Shown: one piece after another, positions 13,752 to 47,552 of the stretch
How positions within the stretch are numbered: position 1 is the stretch's first letter
Layout: every line of letters begins with the position of its first letter
DNA from: Desulfoscipio gibsoniae DSM 7213
GTDB taxonomy: Bacteria > Bacillota > Desulfotomaculia > Desulfotomaculales > Desulfallaceae
Reading direction: 5' to 3'
Length of the DNA: 64,000 bases
Assembly: GCF_000233715.2 (NCBI RefSeq)
Contig: NC_021184.1
Location: forward strand, 3,062,001 to 3,126,000
Position numbers and translations under genes: made by a program
Notes under the pieces: model-generated
Told to the model about the DNA's origin: nothing
Databases searched by the model: none
The model's input: the letters and a program-made list of their open reading frames with translations, nothing else

Positions 13752-14500
13752 GGTTTGCCTAACAAACCATTTCATCTAATAAAACCCATTGGAATCACCT
13801 CCCCGAGAAGTAAATGAATACTATCTTATAACCAAGACCTTTCTTGACATCATCGTACCATTTTCCCTATCCATTTCCAATACCTGGTGTGCAACACGTG
13901 GGAAATGCTGCATAACTCGTTAAGATCCTTGCTTTAACCGTCAATTTTTGTGCATAAAAAAACAGCTCCATTATTTAGAACTGTTCAATGGAAATAAAAA
14001 CTATAAACTTTCATTGAATAAGCCTTAGTTATTCCAGGGAATATATAACACAAATTGTACACCCGGATAATTTTCAGGCTCTGTTAGATTTAATTGACCG
14101 TTGTAGCGGCCTACAATTTGTTTAATTATAAACAACCCCAGGCCGCTGTGGCTGCTTACATCTTTTGTGGTATAGCCAGCGTCGAATATATGATCCCGTA
14201 TATCTTTAGGAACAAAAGCACCGGTATTGGACACTCTTATTTACAATCCCATTTTGTTACTGGTAATTACCATGTCCACCTTCGGATAGCGGCCGGATGT
14301 TGCTGCGTCAAAAGCGTTATCCAGCAAATTGCCGGTTATTTGGGTTAAATCCTCCGGTGAAAGCGGCAGAATACATTTTTTTAAATTGACTTGCCAACTA
14401 AAATCAATACCACGAGACTTGGCGTTTTCTTGCTTAACACTTATGAGAGCACCTAATTCCGGCGGGTTAATACCGAGCAAATTTGCAATTTCGCGCACTC
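13752..14500 (-). repeat. Second copy of the agrC 3' region (about 750 bp)
   Basis: This block aligns with 6669-7418 from the TTGCCTAACAAACCA stretch to the codons around IANLL of agrC, with scattered substitutions. It includes the agrC terminator and the degenerate Spo0E-like remnant. Similarity ends abruptly at about 14500, where unrelated sequence begins. Confidence 0.85.
14025..14500 (-). pseudogene. agrC fragment: 5'-truncated, with an internal stop
   Basis: About 158 C-terminal codons of an AgrC-like kinase remain, from REIANLLGINPPELG through NLLDNAFDA and SGLGLFIIKQI to PWNN. The membrane half and the histidine box are absent. Within the ATPase domain the CAA (Gln) of the intact gene in GLQIKVSN is TAA here, and Lys becomes Arg next to it. 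It is therefore doubly inactivated. Its presence, with the broken agrB at 3581-3893, indicates a former second agr system or a duplication followed by decay. Confidence 0.88.
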
Positions 14501-32399: not shown

Positions 32400-32573
32400 A
32401 TGGCCAGAAGGCGCGGCAGCATTATGTCGGACAAGCTGAAGATGGAGTTAGCCGGAGAACTTGGGGTTGCCGATATTGTACGTGCAGAAGGCGGTTTCGG
32501 CAGTGTTTCGTCAAGGGACTGCGGTAATATGGTCCGCCTGGCTATACAAAGGGCAGAACAGTCAATGGTTTAG
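32400..32573 (+). CDS. Alpha/beta-type small acid-soluble spore protein
   Basis: A 57-residue protein behind AAAGGAGG. It carries the family segments LKMELAGELGVADIV and the DNA-binding GGFGSVSSRDCGNMV with RLAIQRAEQ. These proteins coat and protect DNA in dormant spores and are degraded by the Gpr protease at germination, usually at an E-[IF]-A site; here the matching segment is ELAGELG. Expression is expected in the forespore under sigma-G. It shows that the organism forms, or descends from, endospores. A strong terminator follows. Confidence 0.85.
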   Translation: MARRRGSIMSDKLKMELAGELGVADIVRAEGGFGSVSSRDCGNMVRLAIQRAEQSMV

Positions 32574-32614: not shown

Positions 32615-32741
32615 GTTTGCCGGGTGACAAATGGAGATGGTTCTTGCTTGCCACACTTGCTCTTTAGTTAATCAGCATAATCTGCTACAATATATAGTGT
32701 ACCATTTTGACACATAATCTTACATGATGTGGGGTGGCGAC

Positions 32742-33905
32742 ATGAACAGGATCAATATGAATATTAGCAAATTTGTTGCACCGGAAATAATCTTCGGCCT
32801 GGATGCCATCGGCCAGGTGGGAGAAAGTGCGCTGCGCCTGGGCGCCAAAAAGATTTTTGTAGTTACAGACTACGGTGTAAAAAACCACAGCTGGGTGAAT
32901 AAAGTTTTGCAATACCTGGATCAGGCGGGATTAGAATGCCAGGTATGGTATGACATAACCAGCAACCCCAAGGATACCGAAGTGGCCAGGGGGGCCGAGG
33001 AATACCTGGCCTCTGAATGCGATGCCATAGTAGCCGTGGGTGGCGGAAGTCCAATAGACGCGGCCAAGGCCATGGCCATCATTGCTACCAACGGCGGCCA
33101 AATCCAGGATTATGAGGGTATCAATAAAATCACCCGGCCGCTGCCACCCATGCTTATGGTACCTTCCACCGCAGGTTCAGGCTCTGAGGTATCCCAGTTC
33201 GCCATTATAGTAGACAAGCAGCGCAAGAAAAAAATAGCCATCATATCCAGATCCCTGGTGCCGGACATTGCCATTATCGACCCGCAACTACTGCAAACCA
33301 AGGATGCACAGCTTACTGCAGCCACCGGAGTAGATGCCCTGAGCCACGCCATTGAATCTTATGTTTCACTGGCTGCCAACCAGTTAACTGATGTCCGGGC
33401 CATAGAGGCCATAAGATTAATAGCCGAAAATCTGAGAGAATCAGTGGCCTGCCGGACCAATATGCAGGCTAAATCCGCCATGGCTATGGCCAGTTTGCAG
33501 GCCGGCCTGGCCTTTTCCAATGCCATATTAGGTGCTACCCATGCCATGACCCACCAGGTGGACGGCCTGCTTGATCTGCACCATGGGGAAACCAATGCTA
33601 TTTTGCTGCCCCATGTCATGGAATTTAACTTAATATCCTGCGCAGATAAGTACCGACAAGTAGCTATAGCCATGGGCGAAAACGTAACCGGCCTCAACAA
33701 ACAGGACGCGGCCCAAAGGGCCATTAGCGCTGTGCGTCGCCTGGCACGGGATATCGGTATCGACTACGGGCTTTCCGCCATGGGCTTCAGGGAGGAGTAT
33801 ATACCCGAGCTGAGTAAAAACGCCCTGCATGATGCCTGTATCATAACCAACCCCAGGGACGCCAATGCTGACGATTTAGCCCGCATTTTTTATAAGGCTT
33901 TGTAA
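32742..33905 (+). CDS. Iron-containing alcohol dehydrogenase 1
   Basis: The 387-residue protein belongs to the Fe-ADH (type III) family: nucleotide-binding VGGGSPIDAAKAMA, then AGSGSEVSQFAII, and metal-binding His/Asp residues in LSHAIESYVS (about 195-205), ATHAMTHQVDGLLDLHHGE (His ligands). It oxidises or reduces primary alcohols/aldehydes with NAD(P). ATG 32742 lies behind GGGGTGG. It is 12 bp ahead of the sensor kinase gene, so enzyme and two-component system probably share a transcript. It is about 30-40 percent similar by eye to the second Fe-ADH at 37715. Confidence 0.88.
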   Translation: MNRINMNISKFVAPEIIFGLDAIGQVGESALRLGAKKIFVVTDYGVKNHSWVNKVLQYLDQAGLECQVWYDITSNPKDTEVARGAEEYLASECDAIVAVGGGSPIDAAKAMAIIATNGGQIQDYEGINKITRPLPPMLMVPSTAGSGSEVSQFAIIVDKQRKKKIAIISRSLVPDIAIIDPQLLQTKDAQLTAATGVDALSHAIESYVSLAANQLTDVRAIEAIRLIAENLRESVACRTNMQAKSAMAMASLQAGLAFSNAILGATHAMTHQVDGLLDLHHGETNAILLPHVMEFNLISCADKYRQVAIAMGENVTGLNKQDAAQRAISAVRRLARDIGIDYGLSAMGFREEYIPELSKNALHDACIITNPRDANADDLARIFYKAL

Positions 33906-33917
33906 GGAGGATTGAAG

Positions 33918-35582
33918 ATGGAAAATCAGCATTTAATTAATGAAAAAAAGTATCTAATCGAACAACTCACCGGCATTCATTCCTCCAAAATAAATTATTA
34001 CCTGGAAGTTAAAAAAAGAAATGAAGAAATTATCAAGCAAAATAACCGTTTAGAGATTATACATCAAATCATCAAGGATATTAATATAGATATGTCGCTG
34101 GGGGATATCATCGAGCGAGTATACCAGCGCCTGCCGTTAGTTATTCACTGCGACTTTTTGGGTTTAGCACTGATGCAGCACAGTGATTTATCTATGACAG
34201 CCATGATTCCCGACTGCGACTGCACTGGCCGCCCGGTACCATTTAAATCTTTACTCTGGCATACCGTGCGGGAGAGACAAAGCAAAGTATATTCCTTTTC
34301 CAAAGAGGAGCGCACAGCGCAGGACTGCCCGCCCATTAATCAGCTGAACCTAGTCTCCCTGGCTTTGGATCCACTGATTGTCAAAAGTAACGTAATTGGT
34401 GTGCTGATGATCGGCAGCCAAAGGGAAAACGCTTATACCGAGGATGAGGTCAAATTTACCCGGCAGCTGGCCGACCAACTGACTATTTGCATAGAAAACG
34501 CCCGTCTTTATGAACAGGTATTACACGGCAAAATGGAATGGGAAGAAACTTTTCGCTCTCTGACCGACCCAATTTTGTTAATTGACCAAAACTATAATAT
34601 AATCCGCTGCAATAACCAACTGGAAGGATTACCGGGTCAAATAAACGGTGAACCGGAAAAAAGCAAATGTTATCGCTATGTATGGGGAAGAGATGAAAAG
34701 TGCGAATTTTGCCTGATGGATGAAGTTTATCAAAACCAGGCCCCTGCCTACCGCCGCATCCAATTGGAGTCGGGGAAAACATTTGATGTACATTATTATC
34801 CTGTATTTAAACCAAACCGTGAAATTTATTCGGTGATTCACCACACCAAAGACATTACTGAACAAATCAAAATGGAAGCGCAGCTGACACAGTCGGATAA
34901 ACTGGCGGCTATCGGCGAAATGGCGGCCGGGGTGGCCCATGAGTTAAACAGTCCCATGACCGCAATTATCGGCAATTCCCAGATGATCATGCGGGATGGT
35001 GGTATTGACGAAAGCAATGCAGAACTTCTGCAAGATATCATTAACTGCGGACTGCGGTGTAAAAGAATCATTCAAAATTTACTCACCTTTTCCCGGCAGG
35101 ACCAGCGGCCCATGGCCCGCACCAATCTGAACAAAGTGGTGGAAAGTGTACTTTCATTAGTTCAGTATCAAATTAACCGTAATAATGTGGCCATTAAGCT
35201 GAATCTTGATACAAATCTCCCGGACGTGCTGGCCAACGAACAACAGCTGGACCAGGTACTGGTCAATTTGCTGCTCAACGCCCGGGATGCACTGGAAAAC
35301 AGTCCAAGGGACAAGCAAATCACCATCACCACCGAGCTCAGAAAAACCGATGCCGGCGAATATGTAACTGTCAAGGTAACAGATAACGGTGAGGGCATTC
35401 CAGCGGAGCATATTATGAAAATTTTTAACCCTTTTTTCACCAGCAAAGAGGCCAACCGGGGCACCGGGCTGGGTCTATCAGTCAGCCTGGGCATAGCCGA
35501 AGCCCACGGGGGCACCATCGAGGTGAACAGCACACCGGGACAAGGCAGCTGTTTTACTCTGTTTATCCCGGTAAACTGCTAG
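33918..35582 (+). CDS. NtrB-like sensor histidine kinase with GAF and PAS domains
   Basis: The protein of about 554 residues (ATG 33918, AGGAGG 7 bases upstream) is soluble. It has an N-terminal coiled coil, a GAF domain (about 60-195), a PAS domain (about 205-310) containing a Cys pair in RDEKCEFCLMD, then HisKA with phospho-acceptor in VAHELNSPMTAIIGN and HATPase blocks NLLLNARDAL, DNGEGIP and GTGLGLSVSLGIAEAHGG. The absence of membrane helices and the CxxC in the PAS domain suggest it senses a cytoplasmic redox or metabolite signal. Its partner is the sigma-54 response regulator encoded 88 bp downstream. Confidence 0.9.
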   Translation: MENQHLINEKKYLIEQLTGIHSSKINYYLEVKKRNEEIIKQNNRLEIIHQIIKDINIDMSLGDIIERVYQRLPLVIHCDFLGLALMQHSDLSMTAMIPDCDCTGRPVPFKSLLWHTVRERQSKVYSFSKEERTAQDCPPINQLNLVSLALDPLIVKSNVIGVLMIGSQRENAYTEDEVKFTRQLADQLTICIENARLYEQVLHGKMEWEETFRSLTDPILLIDQNYNIIRCNNQLEGLPGQINGEPEKSKCYRYVWGRDEKCEFCLMDEVYQNQAPAYRRIQLESGKTFDVHYYPVFKPNREIYSVIHHTKDITEQIKMEAQLTQSDKLAAIGEMAAGVAHELNSPMTAIIGNSQMIMRDGGIDESNAELLQDIINCGLRCKRIIQNLLTFSRQDQRPMARTNLNKVVESVLSLVQYQINRNNVAIKLNLDTNLPDVLANEQQLDQVLVNLLLNARDALENSPRDKQITITTELRKTDAGEYVTVKVTDNGEGIPAEHIMKIFNPFFTSKEANRGTGLGLSVSLGIAEAHGGTIEVNSTPGQGSCFTLFIPVNC

Positions 35583-35670: not shown

Positions 35671-37206
35671 TTGACCCCCGGTGAAAACATTCTGGTAATT
35701 GACGATGAGGTTGAGGTCGGTAGTTTTTTTCGCCGCCTGCTGCAACGAAAGGGTTTTAGCGTCAGCCTGGCCCACACGGGCAGCGAAGCCGTGCAATTGA
35801 TTGAATCAGCTAATTTTGCCGTGGCCTTTATCGACTTAAAGCTGCCCGATACCAGCGGGCTTAATTTGTTGCAGCAATTAAAGAACAGCCAGCCCGATTG
35901 CGAGGCCATTATTATGACCGGCTACGGTACCACCCGCACCGCGGTTAAGGCTATCCAAATGGGCGCCTTCGACTATATAGAAAAACCCTTTGAGGATATC
36001 GCCGAAGTTGAGGAACTAATCGACAAAGCGCTGGACTACGGGCGCCGGATAACGGGTAAAACTGCGGGCCGGCCCGAGTGGTTCAACACCGCCGAACAGG
36101 TAGGTTTTATAGTGGGTAAGACTCCCAGGATGCTGCGCCTGGCCACCGTAGCGGACAAAATTGCTCAAAAAAATATTAACGTACTCATCCAGGGTGAAAC
36201 AGGCACAGGCAAGGAAGTGCTGGCCCGGTTTATTCATGCCGCCAGCCCACGGCAGCAGCAAACATTTATTCCTATAAACTGTGGTGCCCTGCCTGAAAAC
36301 CTGCTGGAAAGCGAGCTATTCGGCCATGAAAAGGGAGCATTTACAGGAGCTTCCTGCTTGCGCCGGGGTATTTTTGAAATTGCAGATAACGGGTCACTTT
36401 TCCTGGATGAAATAGGGGAAGCCAACCCTTCCATCCAGGTTAAATTGCTGCGGGTTCTGGAAACAGGCGAGTTTTTGCGGGTAGGTGGCGAAAAGCCGGT
36501 GAAAACCGACGTCCGCATTATTGCGGCCACTAACGTAGACCTGGAAAAAGCCGTTCAGGATAAGCAATTTCGTGAGGATCTTTTTTACCGTCTCGACGTG
36601 GTGCGCCTGGAGTTACCGCCCTTGCGGGAAAGAAGGGAGGACATTCCCAGGCTGGTGAACCATTTTATTGCCCGTGCCAGGGACCGGTCCTCCAGAACAC
36701 TGCAAGTTTCACCGGAAGCTATGTTGTTACTGCAGGAGCACAGCTGGCCGGGTAATATACGGGAACTGGTCAATATTGTGGATCAAGCCATCGCGCTGTG
36801 CGAAGGTAATATGATTCTCCCTACGCATTTATCGAACAAATTATTGCAAGCTACAGCTAAAATCTTTGCCCCGGCAATGGAACATACAAGCACTGCGGAA
36901 CAGTTAGTGCTTGAGACTCTGGAAAGAACCACCACCGACCCCGGGTGGGTGGAAGCGCTGAGCCAGGACAATATTTTAAAAGCCTACCGGTTAACCAAGC
37001 AAATCCAGGAGAGACTCTTCAACCGCATGCAGGTGTTGTCGGTACCAGGCCCTCTACCGCCCAGCCTGGAGGAAATGGAAATCGAGACTATTACCCGCAC
37101 CCTGGCTTATTACGATGGCAATATAACCACTGCAGCCCGCTCCCTGGGCATAGGCAGAAACACCCTCTATAGAAAGATTAAAGAACACGGTATAGAAATC
37201 AAATGA
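35671..37206 (+). CDS. Sigma-54-dependent response regulator (receiver + AAA+ + Fis-type HTH)
   Basis: The 511-residue NtrC-like regulator has a receiver domain (phospho-acceptor in VAFIDLKLPD, Lys in YIEKPFED), a sigma-54-interacting AAA+ domain with Walker A GETGTGKE, the GAFTGA loop in EKGAFTGASC, and Walker B SLFLDEIGE. The C-terminal Fis-type helix-turn-helix reads NITTAARSLGIGRNTLYRKI. A phosphorylated regulator of this type activates RNA polymerase-sigma-54. Start is TTG 35671, behind GGGAGG. The nearby -24/-12 promoters at 37621 and 39070 and their shared upstream palindrome are the obvious candidate targets. Confidence 0.92.
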   Translation: MTPGENILVIDDEVEVGSFFRRLLQRKGFSVSLAHTGSEAVQLIESANFAVAFIDLKLPDTSGLNLLQQLKNSQPDCEAIIMTGYGTTRTAVKAIQMGAFDYIEKPFEDIAEVEELIDKALDYGRRITGKTAGRPEWFNTAEQVGFIVGKTPRMLRLATVADKIAQKNINVLIQGETGTGKEVLARFIHAASPRQQQTFIPINCGALPENLLESELFGHEKGAFTGASCLRRGIFEIADNGSLFLDEIGEANPSIQVKLLRVLETGEFLRVGGEKPVKTDVRIIAATNVDLEKAVQDKQFREDLFYRLDVVRLELPPLRERREDIPRLVNHFIARARDRSSRTLQVSPEAMLLLQEHSWPGNIRELVNIVDQAIALCEGNMILPTHLSNKLLQATAKIFAPAMEHTSTAEQLVLETLERTTTDPGWVEALSQDNILKAYRLTKQIQERLFNRMQVLSVPGPLPPSLEEMEIETITRTLAYYDGNITTAARSLGIGRNTLYRKIKEHGIEIK

Positions 37207-37256: not shown

Positions 37257-37480
37257 ACGCTTTGACCAATCCCGCCATATTTAGTACGTTGAATTATGCT
37301 TAACTGTTTTTATAAATTCCCTAAAGTAGCATGTTTTAAGGTATTTTTCTATTCCTTCTGGGCATGCTAGAAAATTATAATTCAAGAACATTTGTTGTGC
37401 GTATCACACTGTACATAAATGCATTAGTTTAGCATGAAATTCCAGTATAGACTAAAGCTGATCTCTTTGTCCCTTTTCGG

Positions 37481-37502
37481 CACTATGGTTCCATAATAGA
37501 AC
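37481..37502 (+). promoter_or_regulatory. Candidate activator-binding site (enhancer) for the second alcohol dehydrogenase gene
   Basis: The 22-bp element contains CTATGGTTCCATAATAGAAC, a partial palindrome (CTAT...ATAG). It matches 38931-38952 at 18 of 22 positions and lies 118 bp upstream of the -24/-12 promoter. A weaker relative, TTCCAGTATAGAC, is at 37440-37452. Confidence 0.6.
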
Positions 37503-37620
37503 TTGCCCTTAGAGTTAATAATAACTTTTTAGTTTCATTTTGGACCATTATCTTAATTATTTATATATTTACTATAATTTTTATTCGCTGCAAATTTAAA
37601 AATGCTTGAAATAAACGCAC

Positions 37621-37636
37621 TGGCACGACCTTTGCG
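37621..37636 (+). promoter_or_regulatory. Sigma-54 (-24/-12) promoter of the second alcohol dehydrogenase gene
   Basis: TGGCACGACCTTTGCG has the invariant GG and GC separated by exactly 10 bases. It is about 80 bp from the start codon. Confidence 0.82.
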
Positions 37637-37714
37637 TTTAAATAATACTCAAAATAAATAAAATAGTAGGGAAATTAAAACACCTACTCATAATTCAAAG
37701 GAGGTAATCATTTA

Positions 37715-38878
37715 ATGGCATTAGGAGAACAGGTTTACGGTTATTTTATCCCCACGGTCAACCTCATGGGTGTTGGCTCTCACAAAGAAACCACTAATCA
37801 GGTAAAAATCTTGGGCGGAACCAACGCACTCATCGTAACCGATGCATTCCTGGCCAAATCCGGCATGGGTGATGAAATTAAAGCCCTGGTGGAAGCCTCC
37901 GGCGCTAAAGCCACCGTATGGGGCGGAGCCGAGCCCAACCCCACCGACAAAAACGTACATGACGGGCTTAAAGTTTATCAGGACAACAATTGCGACATGA
38001 TCATTTCTCTGGGTGGCGGCAGTTCCCATGACTGCGCCAAGGGTATTGGTATTGTTGCCACCAATGGTGGTAATATACGAGACTATGAAGGGGTGGACAA
38101 GTCTTCCAAAGCCATGCCCCCGTTTATAGCAATAAACACCACCGCCGGAACGGCCAGCGAGATGACCCGTTTCTGTATCATCACCGACACCGATCGTAAG
38201 GTTAAAATGGCTATCGTTGACTGGCGGGTTACACCCAACATCGCCATTAACGACCCCCTGTTAATGGTGGGTATGCCACCGTCCCTTACCGCTGCCACCG
38301 GCATGGATGCGCTGACCCACGCAGTAGAAGCGTATGTATCCACCGCTGCCACACCTGTTACCGACTCAGCAGCATTGATGGCTATCAAGCTGATTTCCGA
38401 GAACCTTCGTGCCGCAGTGGCCAACGGTTCCAACATGGTGGCCCGGGACAACATGGCTTACGCTGAATTTCTGGCCGGCATGGCCTTCAATAACGCTAGC
38501 TTGGGCTACGTACACGCCATGGCTCACCAACTGGGCGGTTACTATAATCTGCCTCACGGCGTATGCAACGCTATTCTGCTTCCCCATGTTTGCTTATTCA
38601 ACCTGATCGCAACCCCCGAGCGTTTTGCCGACATCGCCGAAGCCATGGGCGAAAATATTGAAGGACTCAGCACCCGGGCAGCCGCTGATGTGGCCATCGA
38701 AGCCATCCAGCAGCTTTCAGTAGATGTGAGCATACCCACCGGATTAACTGAGCTGAATGTGCAAGAAAAAGATTTTCAGGTAATGGCCGAAAACGCTATG
38801 AAAGACGCCTGCTCTCTGACCAACCCGCGTCTGGCCACCCTGGAGGATGTCATTCAAATCTACCGCAACGCCATGTAG
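37715..38878 (+). CDS. Iron-containing alcohol dehydrogenase 2
   Basis: The 387-residue protein has the Fe-ADH nucleotide site [16 protein letters not shown], the [13 protein letters not shown] segment, and metal ligands in [10 protein letters not shown] and [19 protein letters not shown] (two His). It is closest to the ethanol/methanol dehydrogenase branch of type III enzymes ([11 protein letters not shown] at the N-terminus). The ATG 37715 follows AAAGGAGG. It has its own sigma-54 promoter and enhancer-like element and ends in a strong terminator, so it is a single-gene unit. With the aldehyde oxidoreductase gene next door it probably feeds aldehyde into ferredoxin-linked oxidation. Confidence 0.9.
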
Positions 38879-38930
38879 TGATCTGATTGTCAACGACGTT
38901 GTTGTAAAAATAATACTTGTCTCATTTTGG

Positions 38931-38952
38931 GGCTATTGTTCCAGAATAGAAC
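38931..38952 (+). promoter_or_regulatory. Candidate activator-binding site for the aldehyde oxidoreductase gene
   Basis: The element contains CTATTGTTCCAGAATAGAAC, with CTATT/AATAG inverted. It matches the site at 37481-37502 and lies 117 bp upstream of the next -24/-12 promoter, almost the same spacing. Its last three bases overlap the following terminator stem. Confidence 0.62.
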
Positions 38953-38992
38953 GCCATCGTTGTGCAATTTCAATGCATAACGATGGCGTTTT
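38950..38992 (+). terminator. Terminator of the second alcohol dehydrogenase gene
   Basis: AACGCCATCGTT pairs with AACGATGGCGTT (12 bp) and is followed by TT-A. Confidence 0.75.
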
Positions 38993-39069
38993 ACAGTAAA
39001 TATCCCAAATTATTAGAGTTATTTATTGCTACAAGCGCTCCTATGCCCCAAACCTGTTAGACATCATGC

Positions 39070-39085
39070 TGGCATATTATTTGCT
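39070..39085 (+). promoter_or_regulatory. Sigma-54 (-24/-12) promoter of the aldehyde oxidoreductase gene
   Basis: TGGCATATTATTTGCT keeps GG and GC exactly 10 bases apart; the start codon is 131 bp downstream. Confidence 0.82.
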
Positions 39086-42645: not shown

Positions 42646-44427
42646 TTAATCCTGATTTAATCGGTATTTACTAATTTTTCGGTAAATAGTAGCCCGGCTA
42701 ATGCCCAGTGCAGCCGCAGCGCGCGTTTTACCCTCCTCTGACCAACCATATAGATTAAGTGCTCCATTGATGGCTTCTTTTTCCAAACATTTAAGTGGCT
42801 TAATCTCCATTGTGTTCACCGGCATAGAACTGTTTTCATGGTGGCGCAGACGAGGAGGAAGACTATCAGGTTCAATTACTGTCCCTTCTTCCAAATTAAT
42901 GGCATATTCAACCGCATTGATCAACTCTCTGATATTGCCCGGCCAGTGATAATCCAGACACAGTTTCAGCGCCCCTTCGCTAAAGCCTGTAATATTCTTT
43001 TGTAACAGCCCGGCAAACCGGTGTCTGTAATGTTCCAGCAGTGCGGGTATATCATCCCGGCGCTCTCTCAGCGGTGGCAGCACCAATGGAATAACGCTTA
43101 GACGGTAGAAAAGATCCTCACGGAAGCTTCCCCGGCGCACCATTTCCTGCAAATCGCTGTTGGTGGCAGCAATTACCCGAATATCCACATGTATAAGCCG
43201 CGTGCCGCCAACCCGTTCAATCTGTCTTTCCTGCAGCACACGCAGCAGCTTGGCTTGTAGATAAAGGGACATATTGCCGATCTCGTCGAGAAAAACAGTG
43301 CCGCCATTGGCCAGTTCAAATTTACCTGGTTTACCACCGCGCCTAGCACCGGTAAAGGCACCCTCCTCATAGCCAAAAAGTTCGCTTTCCAGCAAATGCT
43401 CGGGTATGGCCCCGCAATTTATGGGCATAAAGGGTTTATGTCCATGCGGCCCGGCGCTATGGATGGCCCGCGCAAAAACTTCTTTACCCGTGCCGCTTTC
43501 GCCCAATATAAGCACAGTGGAGTTACTGCGGGCTATTTTTTGGGCTTTGTTTTTTACTTCACGAATGGCTTTACTTTCGCCAATAATATCATTGAAATTA
43601 AGCATTTCTTGGGTGGTGACGATTTGATAGGCCAGTCTCTGGGCCTCTCGAAAATCCCTAAAAGTGGCCACCACCCCTGCACAAGTTCCTTCTCCGGAAC
43701 GTACGGGCCGGGCGGTAATCAAAAGGTGGTGTCTTTTACTACGGGCGTTGACAAAGTATTCACGGGAATTAAACCCCTTGCCCTTTTTAAGCACTTGCAG
43801 CAATGGCATATCCTCAAAAATCCGCTGTATCGGCTGTCCCAGCAGCTGATCCTTAGGCATACCAAACATTTTCTCCGCGGATCGGTTACAATGCGTAATA
43901 ATCCCGTGCTCATTAATAGCCAGGACACCTTCATAAACGGCATCCACCACCGCTTCCAGTCTGCCGGCCATAACAATTTTATCTTTAAGCATTTCCCGCT
44001 CCATAATTTTACCGGAGATTAGGTCAGCCATCCGACCCACAAAATCAATTAATGTTTCTGTGTTATTGTTCAAAGTTTGTTTTTGCTCTTCATTAAAAGC
44101 TACCAGGCTGATGGTGCCAAGCACTCTATCTTCCACAGAGATGGGATAAACAATATAAGCCCGGTAAAAGCAGGTGCCCGAAAGCGAGCAGGATGAACAA
44201 AGGGAATGAAAACCAGGCTCATTGATGAACACATGCTTACCGGTTTGCAAAACATGCTTGTTAACCAGCCCCCGGAGCAAACGACTACCTACATCGGCCC
44301 GCACCTGACCGGTACCCGCCACCCGTACCAGGTTGGCGTTAATTATCTCCACTTCAACTTTTAAAGCAGCGGCAATAGCATCGGATACCCGCTGTTCCAT
44401 TTCTCTGGCCTGCATCAAGCTGAGCAT
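42646..44427 (-). CDS. Sigma-54-dependent activator with Cys-containing sensor and PAS domains
   Basis: From ATG 44427 (GGGGG 9 bases upstream) the protein has 593 residues; a longer upstream frame lacks a ribosome site. The N-terminal sensor domain (about 10-165) contains the cluster CSSCSLSGTC, suggesting metal or redox sensing. A PAS domain follows (about 170-280), then the AAA+ domain with GESGTGKE, EEGAFTGARR and Walker B TVFLDEIGN, and a Fis-type HTH (EEGKTRAAAALGISRATIYR). There is no receiver domain, so it is controlled by ligand, not phosphorylation. It lies 193 bp beyond korC; the korDABC promoter is of the -24/-12 type, making that operon a likely target. Confidence 0.88.
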   Translation of the reverse strand: MLSLMQAREMEQRVSDAIAAALKVEVEIINANLVRVAGTGQVRADVGSRLLRGLVNKHVLQTGKHVFINEPGFHSLCSSCSLSGTCFYRAYIVYPISVEDRVLGTISLVAFNEEQKQTLNNNTETLIDFVGRMADLISGKIMEREMLKDKIVMAGRLEAVVDAVYEGVLAINEHGIITHCNRSAEKMFGMPKDQLLGQPIQRIFEDMPLLQVLKKGKGFNSREYFVNARSKRHHLLITARPVRSGEGTCAGVVATFRDFREAQRLAYQIVTTQEMLNFNDIIGESKAIREVKNKAQKIARSNSTVLILGESGTGKEVFARAIHSAGPHGHKPFMPINCGAIPEHLLESELFGYEEGAFTGARRGGKPGKFELANGGTVFLDEIGNMSLYLQAKLLRVLQERQIERVGGTRLIHVDIRVIAATNSDLQEMVRRGSFREDLFYRLSVIPLVLPPLRERRDDIPALLEHYRHRFAGLLQKNITGFSEGALKLCLDYHWPGNIRELINAVEYAINLEEGTVIEPDSLPPRLRHHENSSMPVNTMEIKPLKCLEKEAINGALNLYGWSEEGKTRAAAALGISRATIYRKISKYRLNQD

Positions 44428-44620
44428 TGGTATAAACCCCCGAAATTTATTGAATAAGAAAAATGCCATTAGTTTAACTACTTTAGTTATACAAAAGCTA
44501 CAAAGCTTAGTTTTTTGAACAACAAAAGAGGAGGCTTTATCCATCGCCTCCCCCGCTTATTATTTATCATAAACCAGATACAAGCTATTTATCAATATAT
44601 TAAAAAGTGCTGTATAATCA

Positions 44621-47536: not shown

Positions 47537-47552
47537 TGCAATTCATATGCCA
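47537..47552 (-). promoter_or_regulatory. Sigma-54 (-24/-12) promoter of korDABC
   Basis: The minus strand reads TGGCATATGAATTGCA, with GG and GC 10 bases apart, 45 bp upstream of the korD start. The 22-bp element seen before the alcohol and aldehyde dehydrogenase genes is not present here, consistent with a different activator. Confidence 0.78.

Follow-up and report, generated by a model that had tools for sequence, protein, structure and literature searches.

Tandem enhancer dyads and a candidate two-component regulator for alcohol oxidation genes in Desulfoscipio gibsoniae and its relatives

The DNA examined here is a stretch of 64,000 nucleotides from Desulfoscipio gibsoniae DSM 7213 (NC_021184.1, positions 3,062,001 to 3,126,000 of the forward strand), which is called the window below and is numbered from its first letter. 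It carries a regulatory triad, composed of an ErcA-like gene, a histidine kinase gene, and a response regulator gene, together with genes for an iron-type alcohol dehydrogenase (ADH, gene adh) and an aldehyde:ferredoxin oxidoreductase (AOR). Our subject is a pair of similar elements upstream of the two enzyme genes, which we propose are binding sites for the regulator of the triad. The five genes are as follows.

32742..33905, plus strand: ErcA-like iron alcohol dehydrogenase paralog, which leads the regulatory triad; its open reading frame (ORF) opens at 32724
33912..35582, plus strand: histidine kinase with a GAF and PAS-like sensor region (PAS_4 under its curated cut-off)
35671..37206, plus strand: NtrC-type response regulator and proposed activator, with a receiver, an AAA+ domain with GAFTGA at residue 222, and a Fis-type helix-turn-helix
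37715..38878, plus strand: iron-type alcohol dehydrogenase (adh), 387 amino acids, PF00465/PF25137
39217..40944, plus strand: AOR, 575 amino acids, AFOR_N and AFOR_C domains

Residues D198, H202, H267, and H281 of the adh product, which we take to be metal ligands, are kept in 31 of 31 sequences. In the AOR protein, C294, C298, and C302 are kept in all 26 sequences, as is C485 in all 25 that have a letter at that position. An earlier note on this DNA had named the two genes as encoding alcohol and aldehyde dehydrogenases. The first name stands, whereas the second gene is, by its domains (PF01314, PF02730), that of an AOR.

The best family for the ErcA-like protein is NF041833 (ErcA), but its score of 501.5 bits falls under the curated cut-off of 550 (three relatives reach 488–495 bits), and so the protein is named ErcA-like rather than ErcA. 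Four positions that presumably serve as metal ligands are kept in 41–42 of 42 sequences, and given this conservation the protein may still be an enzyme. The kinase has four cysteines that are invariant in 43 of 43 relatives, three of them (253, 264, and 267) in its PAS-like region and the fourth at position 383. These residues would point to a cytosolic signal linked to redox state, metal, or thiols, and an Fe-S sensor is also conceivable. The most hydrophobic 19 residues of the kinase score 1.69, which is close to the usual hydrophobicity limit for a membrane span. Because this segment contains D and K and falls in the GAF region, the kinase is probably soluble. The regulator has the receiver Asp55 and matches PF00158 (AAA+) at 233 bits, and it scores under the cut-offs for both NtrC (TIGR01818, 420.6 versus 558.6 bits) and AtoC (NF008469, 426.7 versus 714 bits). 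Sigma-54 is encoded in the genome (one PF04552 match, 209 bits).

The earlier note had described two similar 22-bp elements located 118 and 117 bp upstream of sigma-54 promoters, and the coordinates bear this out. The 22-mers at 37481–37502 and 38931–38952 are identical at 18 of 22 positions, and the gaps between them and the -24 elements are 118 bp at adh (37503–37620) and 117 bp at the AOR gene (38953–39069). When the window is searched with the 20-bp consensus allowing up to three mismatches, two matches are found versus 0.01 expected. In the whole 4,855,529-bp genome, which the note had proposed to search for the consensus upstream of -24/-12 promoters, both elements are perfect matches and no other match lies within two mismatches. 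The single further match, with three mismatches, sits within an ORF. The likeness of the two upstream regions extends 5′ of the 22-mers (30 of 40 positions, 37464–37503 versus 38914–38953). Each 22-mer covers the downstream dyad, together with some of the spacer, of a larger enhancer, which has two 17-bp dyads of consensus TGTTCC-N5-GGAACA arranged in tandem with their centers 19 bp apart. The elements of the two upstream regions are listed here.

37468..37503, plus strand: adh enhancer, TGTCCCTTTTCGGCACT (37468–37484) and GGTTCCATAATAGAACT (37487–37503), centers 19 bp apart; includes the first 22-mer
37531..37547, plus strand: third, weaker dyad in the interval between the adh enhancer and promoter, AGTTTCATTTTGGACCA
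37621..37635, plus strand: -24/-12 sigma-54 promoter of adh, TGGCACGACCTTTGC, conserved in orthologous promoters
38918..38953, plus strand: AOR gene enhancer, TGTCTCATTTTGGGGCT (38918–38934) and TGTTCCAGAATAGAACG (38937–38953); includes the second 22-mer
38947..38993, plus strand: strong hairpin overlapping the right end of the AOR enhancer (-30.9 kcal/mol, z -8.5), with a short T run only
39070..39084, plus strand: -24/-12 sigma-54 promoter of the AOR gene, TGGCATATTATTTGC

Both sigma-54 promoters had been called perfect. This description fits the promoter at 37621, but the one at 39070 reads TGGCAT-N5-TTGC and is one mismatch away from TGGCAC-N5-TTGC, although it agrees with the TTGGCATNNNNNTTGCT consensus of Nie et al. 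Matches to TGGCAC-N5-TTGC with up to one mismatch are not rare in the window (seven versus 5.4 expected). The weight of the evidence therefore rests on the position and conservation of these promoters.

Regulator orthologs were sought in 16 family genomes and are present in 10, D. gibsoniae included. Eight of the others are full length at 66–83% identity, and the copy in MAG.313 (G004) is in pieces. The relatives include Desulfotruncus alcoholivorax (G007), D. arcticus (G008), Desulfallas sp. Bu1-1 (G009), Desulfoscipio geothermicus DSM 3669 (G006), and Desulfoscipio sp. strain L (G013), as well as the metagenome-assembled genome (MAG) BRH_c8a (G001) and a geothermicus-labelled MAG (G010). The adh and AOR upstream regions of the regulator-bearing genomes have TGTTCC-N5-GGAACA in common, and the perfect form occurs upstream of the G004 AOR gene.

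In 14 regions from eight of these genomes, the dyad is found twice with centers 19 bp apart. At this spacing the summed best score is 257, compared with 174.6 (standard deviation, sd, 3.4) for 200 shuffles, and the other spacings from 12 to 69 give at most 215. Most of these other spacings also exceed the shuffles because the dyads themselves are enriched. The 14 regions were picked by eye among 19, leaving out the G006 AOR, G001 adh, G001 AOR, G004 AOR, and G004 kinase regions. When four of the omitted regions and two further adh copies are restored to give 20 family adh and AOR regions, spacing 19 scores 354 versus 250.5 (sd 4.1; largest of 100 shuffles 262), and the next best value is 298 at spacing 42. 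The dyad consensus was read from these same sequences, which makes the dyad score circular, but not the spacing score.

The distance from tandem to promoter ranges from 73 to 141 bp over the 14 family promoters, whereas the dyad-to-dyad spacing of 19 bp is constant. The earlier note had taken the equal geometry at adh and the AOR gene as a sign of a common activator, and this argument is dropped in view of the range observed in relatives. A strict TGGCAY-N5-TTGC promoter is present in 12 of the 14 family regions, and the remaining two have degenerate -24/-12 sites (AGGCAC, TGGAAC) that are seen only with a widened pattern. The third adh dyad occurs at a near-constant distance in all seven family adh promoters examined, where its summed score of 59 (versus 45.1, sd 2.1) is reached by none of 1000 shuffles.

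Two family genomes show rearrangements around these elements. The AOR gene of D. geothermicus has another location and the opposite orientation, and a tandem enhancer with a -24/-12 site remains behind adh (L059:13386–13750); no AOR match follows this retained tandem, which is among the 14 regions above, within the 18.5-kb stretch. In the geothermicus-labelled MAG (L056, interval between the regulator and AOR genes), adh is reduced to its last 25 codons and the AOR promoter unit is kept. The hairpin at 38947–38993 of the window, which starts within the right half-site of the AOR enhancer, is probably the end of adh transcription. The terminator scanner did not list this hairpin and reported instead a weak terminator-like stem at 38919–38933, inside the first AOR dyad. 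Judged by eye from unfolded sequence, inverted repeats like this hairpin come after the enhancer in other family AOR upstream regions.

A sequence-only model was built from 14 family sites. With the best 150 candidates of the D. gibsoniae genome scored, the model detects the tandem at E ≤ 5 only at adh (7.6e-7) and the AOR gene (2.8e-6), and both matches are training sites. The note had named a motif that is frequent and unlinked to -24/-12 promoters as one outcome that would speak against its proposal; the two genomic matches, and the strict promoters in most family regions, show the opposite pattern. At E ≤ 0.0033, the model has a match in nine of the 10 family genomes with the regulator and in none of the six without it (best 0.175). 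Eight of the nine positive genomes supplied training sites, which leaves G004 as the sole independent positive. Among 113 order-level genomes searched with stricter filters, 12 have a match at E ≤ 0.005, including three outside the family. Weak matches to a 15-bp core with up to two mismatches number 21 in the D. gibsoniae genome (both sites included) versus 18 for a reversed control and were taken as chance. All three such loci inspected fall inside ORFs.

Seventeen held-out promoters, several of them closely related to one another, were neither in the model nor chosen through it. Nine of these beat all 200 shuffles, and two are reached by one or two of the 200. Three promoters that the model or the dyad scan had picked (D. 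alcoholivorax Hdr, G004 adh, and D. palustris after the regulator gene) were excluded from this count. With them, 12 of 20 beat all shuffles, two nearly do so, and six do not.

Outside the family, 47 adh and AOR upstream regions were examined, in genomes that are partly those of the held-out promoters. This set excludes genes of less than 66% identity, those whose start is unclear, and those with <150 bp of upstream sequence. An unnormalised half-site search was swamped by AT-rich words and was redone against shuffles, such that 4096 half-sites combined with five spacers (20,480 dyads) were compared with 30 shuffled sets. In different registers, the palindrome seen in the family takes ranks 1, 2, and 4 among the 20,480 dyads, and spacing 19 ranks first of 52 (z 18.1). 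Taken singly, 22 of the 47 regions reach at least 16 of 24 for a tandem.

The gene neighborhood of the triad was compared more widely. A kinase search at E ≤ 1e-110 gives matches in 55 of the 113 order-level genomes, at a threshold that admits paralogs at 42–47% identity, and the loci compared are those of 35 out-of-family genomes with a kinase at 52–63% identity. ErcA-like, kinase, and regulator genes stand together at 34 of these 35 loci; at the remaining one, no ErcA-like match is present within the stretch. By eye, adh (at least 66% identity) is in the stretch at 25 loci, an AOR gene (some partial) at 24, either gene at 29, and neither at six. In the recognition helix of the regulator, L492, G493, G495–T498 (GRNT), and Y500–K502 (YRK) are invariant in all 42 sequences with letters there, of 43 aligned. 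The recognition helix differs in a paralog from the same genome that is 56% identical along most of its length.

The best reading of these comparisons, and one that is well supported, is that the regulator encoded at 35671–37206 binds the predicted tandem sites. The proposal of the earlier note that one activator, most simply this regulator, serves both genes is supported by the co-occurrence of regulator and sites across the 16 family genomes.

Several observations weigh against this reading. The strict model misses adh and AOR of G001, where a second adh copy has a weaker tandem and the AOR dyads are weaker or single. The G001 match that does appear (E 0.011, contig 45) is upstream of a sigma-factor-like ORF, and no -24/-12 site was detected across its 13-kb locus. 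Six of the 17 held-out promoters are unremarkable, being matched by 5, 11, 12, 13, 117, and 133 of 200 shuffles. In the 47 out-of-family regions, spacings other than 19 are also high, including 23 (z 15.7), 24 (z 14.7), and 18. Singly, 25 of these regions score 15 or less of 24, with a shuffle mean of ∼12.5, and only 28 have a strict -24/-12 site (34 with a relaxed pattern). The promoters are homologous, and counts of them are not independent events. Finally, two tandem matches in D. arcticus (L108:7458–7493 and 13891–13926) flank a different sigma-54 activator and adjoin genes for an aldehyde dehydrogenase (PF00171) and an iron alcohol dehydrogenase. Related activators may thus share the motif.

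One alternative is that a different activator of the genome, whose Fis-type helix is similar, uses these sites jointly or by itself, and that the local system is a mere neighbor. The D. gibsoniae genome has 71 matches to the domains of the regulator, and sites of the type TGT-N10-12-ACA are common to 15 published groups (PMC6615313). The dyads near the other D. arcticus activator look related as well. Against this, adh or an AOR gene shares the stretch of the triad at 29 of 35 out-of-family loci, and within the family the sites accompany the regulator. We consider this alternative unlikely.

Ownership of the sites by a PAS-type sigma-54 activator encoded at 42646–44544, acting as a one-component protein in the manner of the Clostridium activators AdhR and AorR, is more improbable still. 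The start of its gene is less than 4 kb away from the 3′ end of the AOR gene, and the majority of Clostridiales sigma-54 activators are one-component (387 of 431 with an N-terminal domain, PMC6615313). Against this stands its distribution across genomes, on which this candidate was rejected: At E ≤ 1e-150, orthologs are absent from G010 and G015, both of which have the sites, and orthologs at 73–78% identity occur in G003 and G005, both of which lack them. The gene also lies directly after a same-strand 2-oxoacid oxidoreductase operon with its own candidate -24/-12 site, which would be the likelier target.

That candidate site, TGGCATATGAATTGC, is at 47538–47552 on the minus strand, ∼45 bp before the likely start (47492) of a ferredoxin gene. 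This gene opens the minus-strand 2-oxoacid oxidoreductase operon, and the activator gene at 42646–44544 follows. In another stretch (L110), a -24/-12 site likewise precedes the orthologous operon. The operon and the activator are probably a second, separate sigma-54 unit.

The notion that the repeat reflects a recent promoter-region duplication or general conservation, as the likeness of the two upstream regions over 40 bp might suggest, can be set aside because the 19-bp dyad spacing is constant while the promoter distance varies and because the dyads recur in diverged promoters outside the family.

Binding of the tandem sites by the triad's regulator is the core of the explanation that we favor, in which the kinase–regulator two-component system, with its ErcA-like gene, controls alcohol oxidation through tandem enhancers. 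We give this explanation as a whole a probability of roughly 0.86. Comparison yields directly the sites, their geometry and conservation, and their co-occurrence with the regulator and its helix. The steps that follow, from signal and binding through activation to the chemistry of the enzymes and the direction of metabolism, are predictions from sequence. A stimulated kinase would phosphorylate the regulator, with the signal being an alcohol, its aldehyde, or the resulting redox state. Two regulator dimers would then occupy the tandem dyads upstream of adh, where the third dyad may assist, and those upstream of the AOR gene. The AAA+ ring would contact sigma-54 polymerase at the -24/-12 sites, 116–117 bp downstream of the tandems, and drive both genes. 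ADH would convert alcohol to aldehyde and AOR would convert aldehyde to acid, which would supply NADH and reduced ferredoxin for sulfate respiration.

A further element concerns control of the regulator itself.

32698..32714, plus strand: single dyad, proposed autoregulatory operator, TGTACCATTTTGACACA; just after a -10-like TACAAT (32686–32691) and before the ErcA-like gene

This single dyad is located 17–45 bp before the start of the ErcA-like gene in eight of nine family genomes examined. Over all nine genomes, the exception included, it scores 81 versus 61.2 (sd 2.3); no value as high occurs among 1000 shuffles or among 59 permuted half-sites. Its position weakly suggests repression of a sigma-A promoter and autoregulation. 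By binding where the erc-like operon presumably starts, the regulator would probably limit its own synthesis. The promoter scanner reported no sigma-A promoter at the start of this operon, and the autoregulation step is therefore weak. In the 32 out-of-family upstream regions inspected, this dyad is not preserved in that form, and a few regions contain a dyad at some other position. We do not propose a sigma-54 promoter for the operon, as the strict pattern occurs in one of 42 upstream regions and the relaxed pattern in eight. The DNA before the ErcA-like operon encodes, at 32400–32573, a small acid-soluble spore protein of 57 residues (PF00269, 28.6 bits), and by eye a similar ORF precedes the kinase gene in G004.

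Additional targets are seen in some relatives. In D. alcoholivorax, a tandem lies upstream of three HdrC-, HdrB-, and HdrA-like genes, with TGGCACGTTTTTTGC 72 bp further (E 9.8e-5 on one strand and 4.1e-3 on the strand of the operon). The Hdr-like names were given by inspection; Pfam assigns Fer4_8, two CCG domains, and FAD/Fer4 domains to these proteins. Immediately 3′ of its regulator gene, Desulfocucumis palustris has a tandem and a -24/-12 site, and the -24/-12 site is ∼360 bp before the gene for a small HTH_1 protein, which we take to be ModE-like. This gene is followed by those for an ABC-permease-like protein (no Pfam match), MoaA (Mob_synth_C), and MoaC. Targets of the Hdr-like and Moa types would fit AOR chemistry, which presumably involves ferredoxin electrons and a pterin cofactor. 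In genome G102, a model match lies upstream of an ADH gene located at the end of a contig (170 residues available, 77% identity); this genome has no main-type kinase above the cut-off used, which may reflect incompleteness. Desulforamulus putei has a model match (E 6.1e-4; G055 contig 37, L210:8075–8110) with a -24/-12 site 51 bp downstream, away from the triad.

A broader version of the scheme can be offered tentatively for the order, although we rate its chance of being right throughout as clearly below even. The ErcA-like paralog would be part of the sensor, and the soluble, cysteine-marked kinase would report alcohol or aldehyde turnover. The regulator would activate genes for ADH and AOR, and in some species Hdr-like or pterin-cofactor genes, through tandems, and would hold down its own operon by way of a single dyad placed at a sigma-A start.

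The proposed site has known counterparts. NtrC (NR-I) binds a dyad with five central bases and has a Fis-type recognition helix that contains GRNT. The site and helix described here are alike in these respects. However, the half-site, the 19-bp tandem spacing, and the targets differ from those of NtrC, and the regulator falls under the NtrC equivalog cut-off as noted above.

In Clostridium, AdhR and AorR have been described as sigma-54 activators of adhA and aor, respectively, with TGT-N10-12-ACA sites (PMC6615313), and three AdhR sites have mutational proof (PMC7017808). The system proposed here is similar in that sigma-54 activation serves iron alcohol dehydrogenase or aldehyde oxidoreductase genes through several upstream sites per promoter (three at Clostridium adhA1 and adhA2). 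TGTTCC-N5-GGAACA, which is TGT-N11-ACA, falls within the same site type. However, AdhR (adhA) and AorR (aor-moaD) are separate activators for alcohol synthesis (PMC6615313, Table 1), whereas here one response regulator with a receiver domain, along with a kinase and an ErcA-like protein, would serve both genes in sulfate reducers. The regulator was not recognized among the 39 groups of PMC6615313, as judged from its main text.

Two other systems invite comparison. In Desulfovibrio vulgaris, a gram-negative sulfate reducer, the sigma-54 response regulator DVU2394 is assigned to adh and hdr genes (PMC3333781, PMC4641369). Its site is a direct repeat (PMC3333781), unlike the tandem inverted repeats described here. 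The passages on DVU2394 report its motif in only one other strain and name no AOR target. In Pseudomonas, ercA adjoins the kinase gene ercS and has a reported role in regulating ethanol use (PMC12997753). The arrangement of an iron alcohol dehydrogenase gene beside a sensor kinase gene is the same, but ErcS is described as a hybrid kinase, predicted to be in the membrane, within a LuxR-type regulator network, whereas the kinase here is probably soluble with an NtrC-type partner.

ADH/AOR pairs have been linked to alcohol growth in Gram-positive sulfate reducers (PMC5770442, PMC10907483), and D. kuznetsovii has such a pair in abundance when grown on methanol and ethanol (PMC5770442). Neither of these two D. 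kuznetsovii papers uses “regulator,” “two-component,” or “histidine kinase” in its main text, and the titles and abstracts surveyed for sulfate-reducing Firmicutes yielded no description of the regulator or its site. The suggestion in the earlier note that the binding site is undescribed holds to this extent, but sigma-54 control of alcohol and aldehyde genes through TGT-N10-12-ACA sites was already published in PMC6615313. What appears to be new is the regulator, its site, and the conserved local architecture.

For the oxidation of alcohols by Gram-positive sulfate reducers and related bacteria, these findings put forward a regulator, its binding site, and its regulon in a form concrete enough to be tested. 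At almost all loci examined, an ErcA-like enzyme that looks catalytic is also linked with a two-component system. The part in regulation that has been reported for Pseudomonas ErcA can thereby be tested in another, distant setting.

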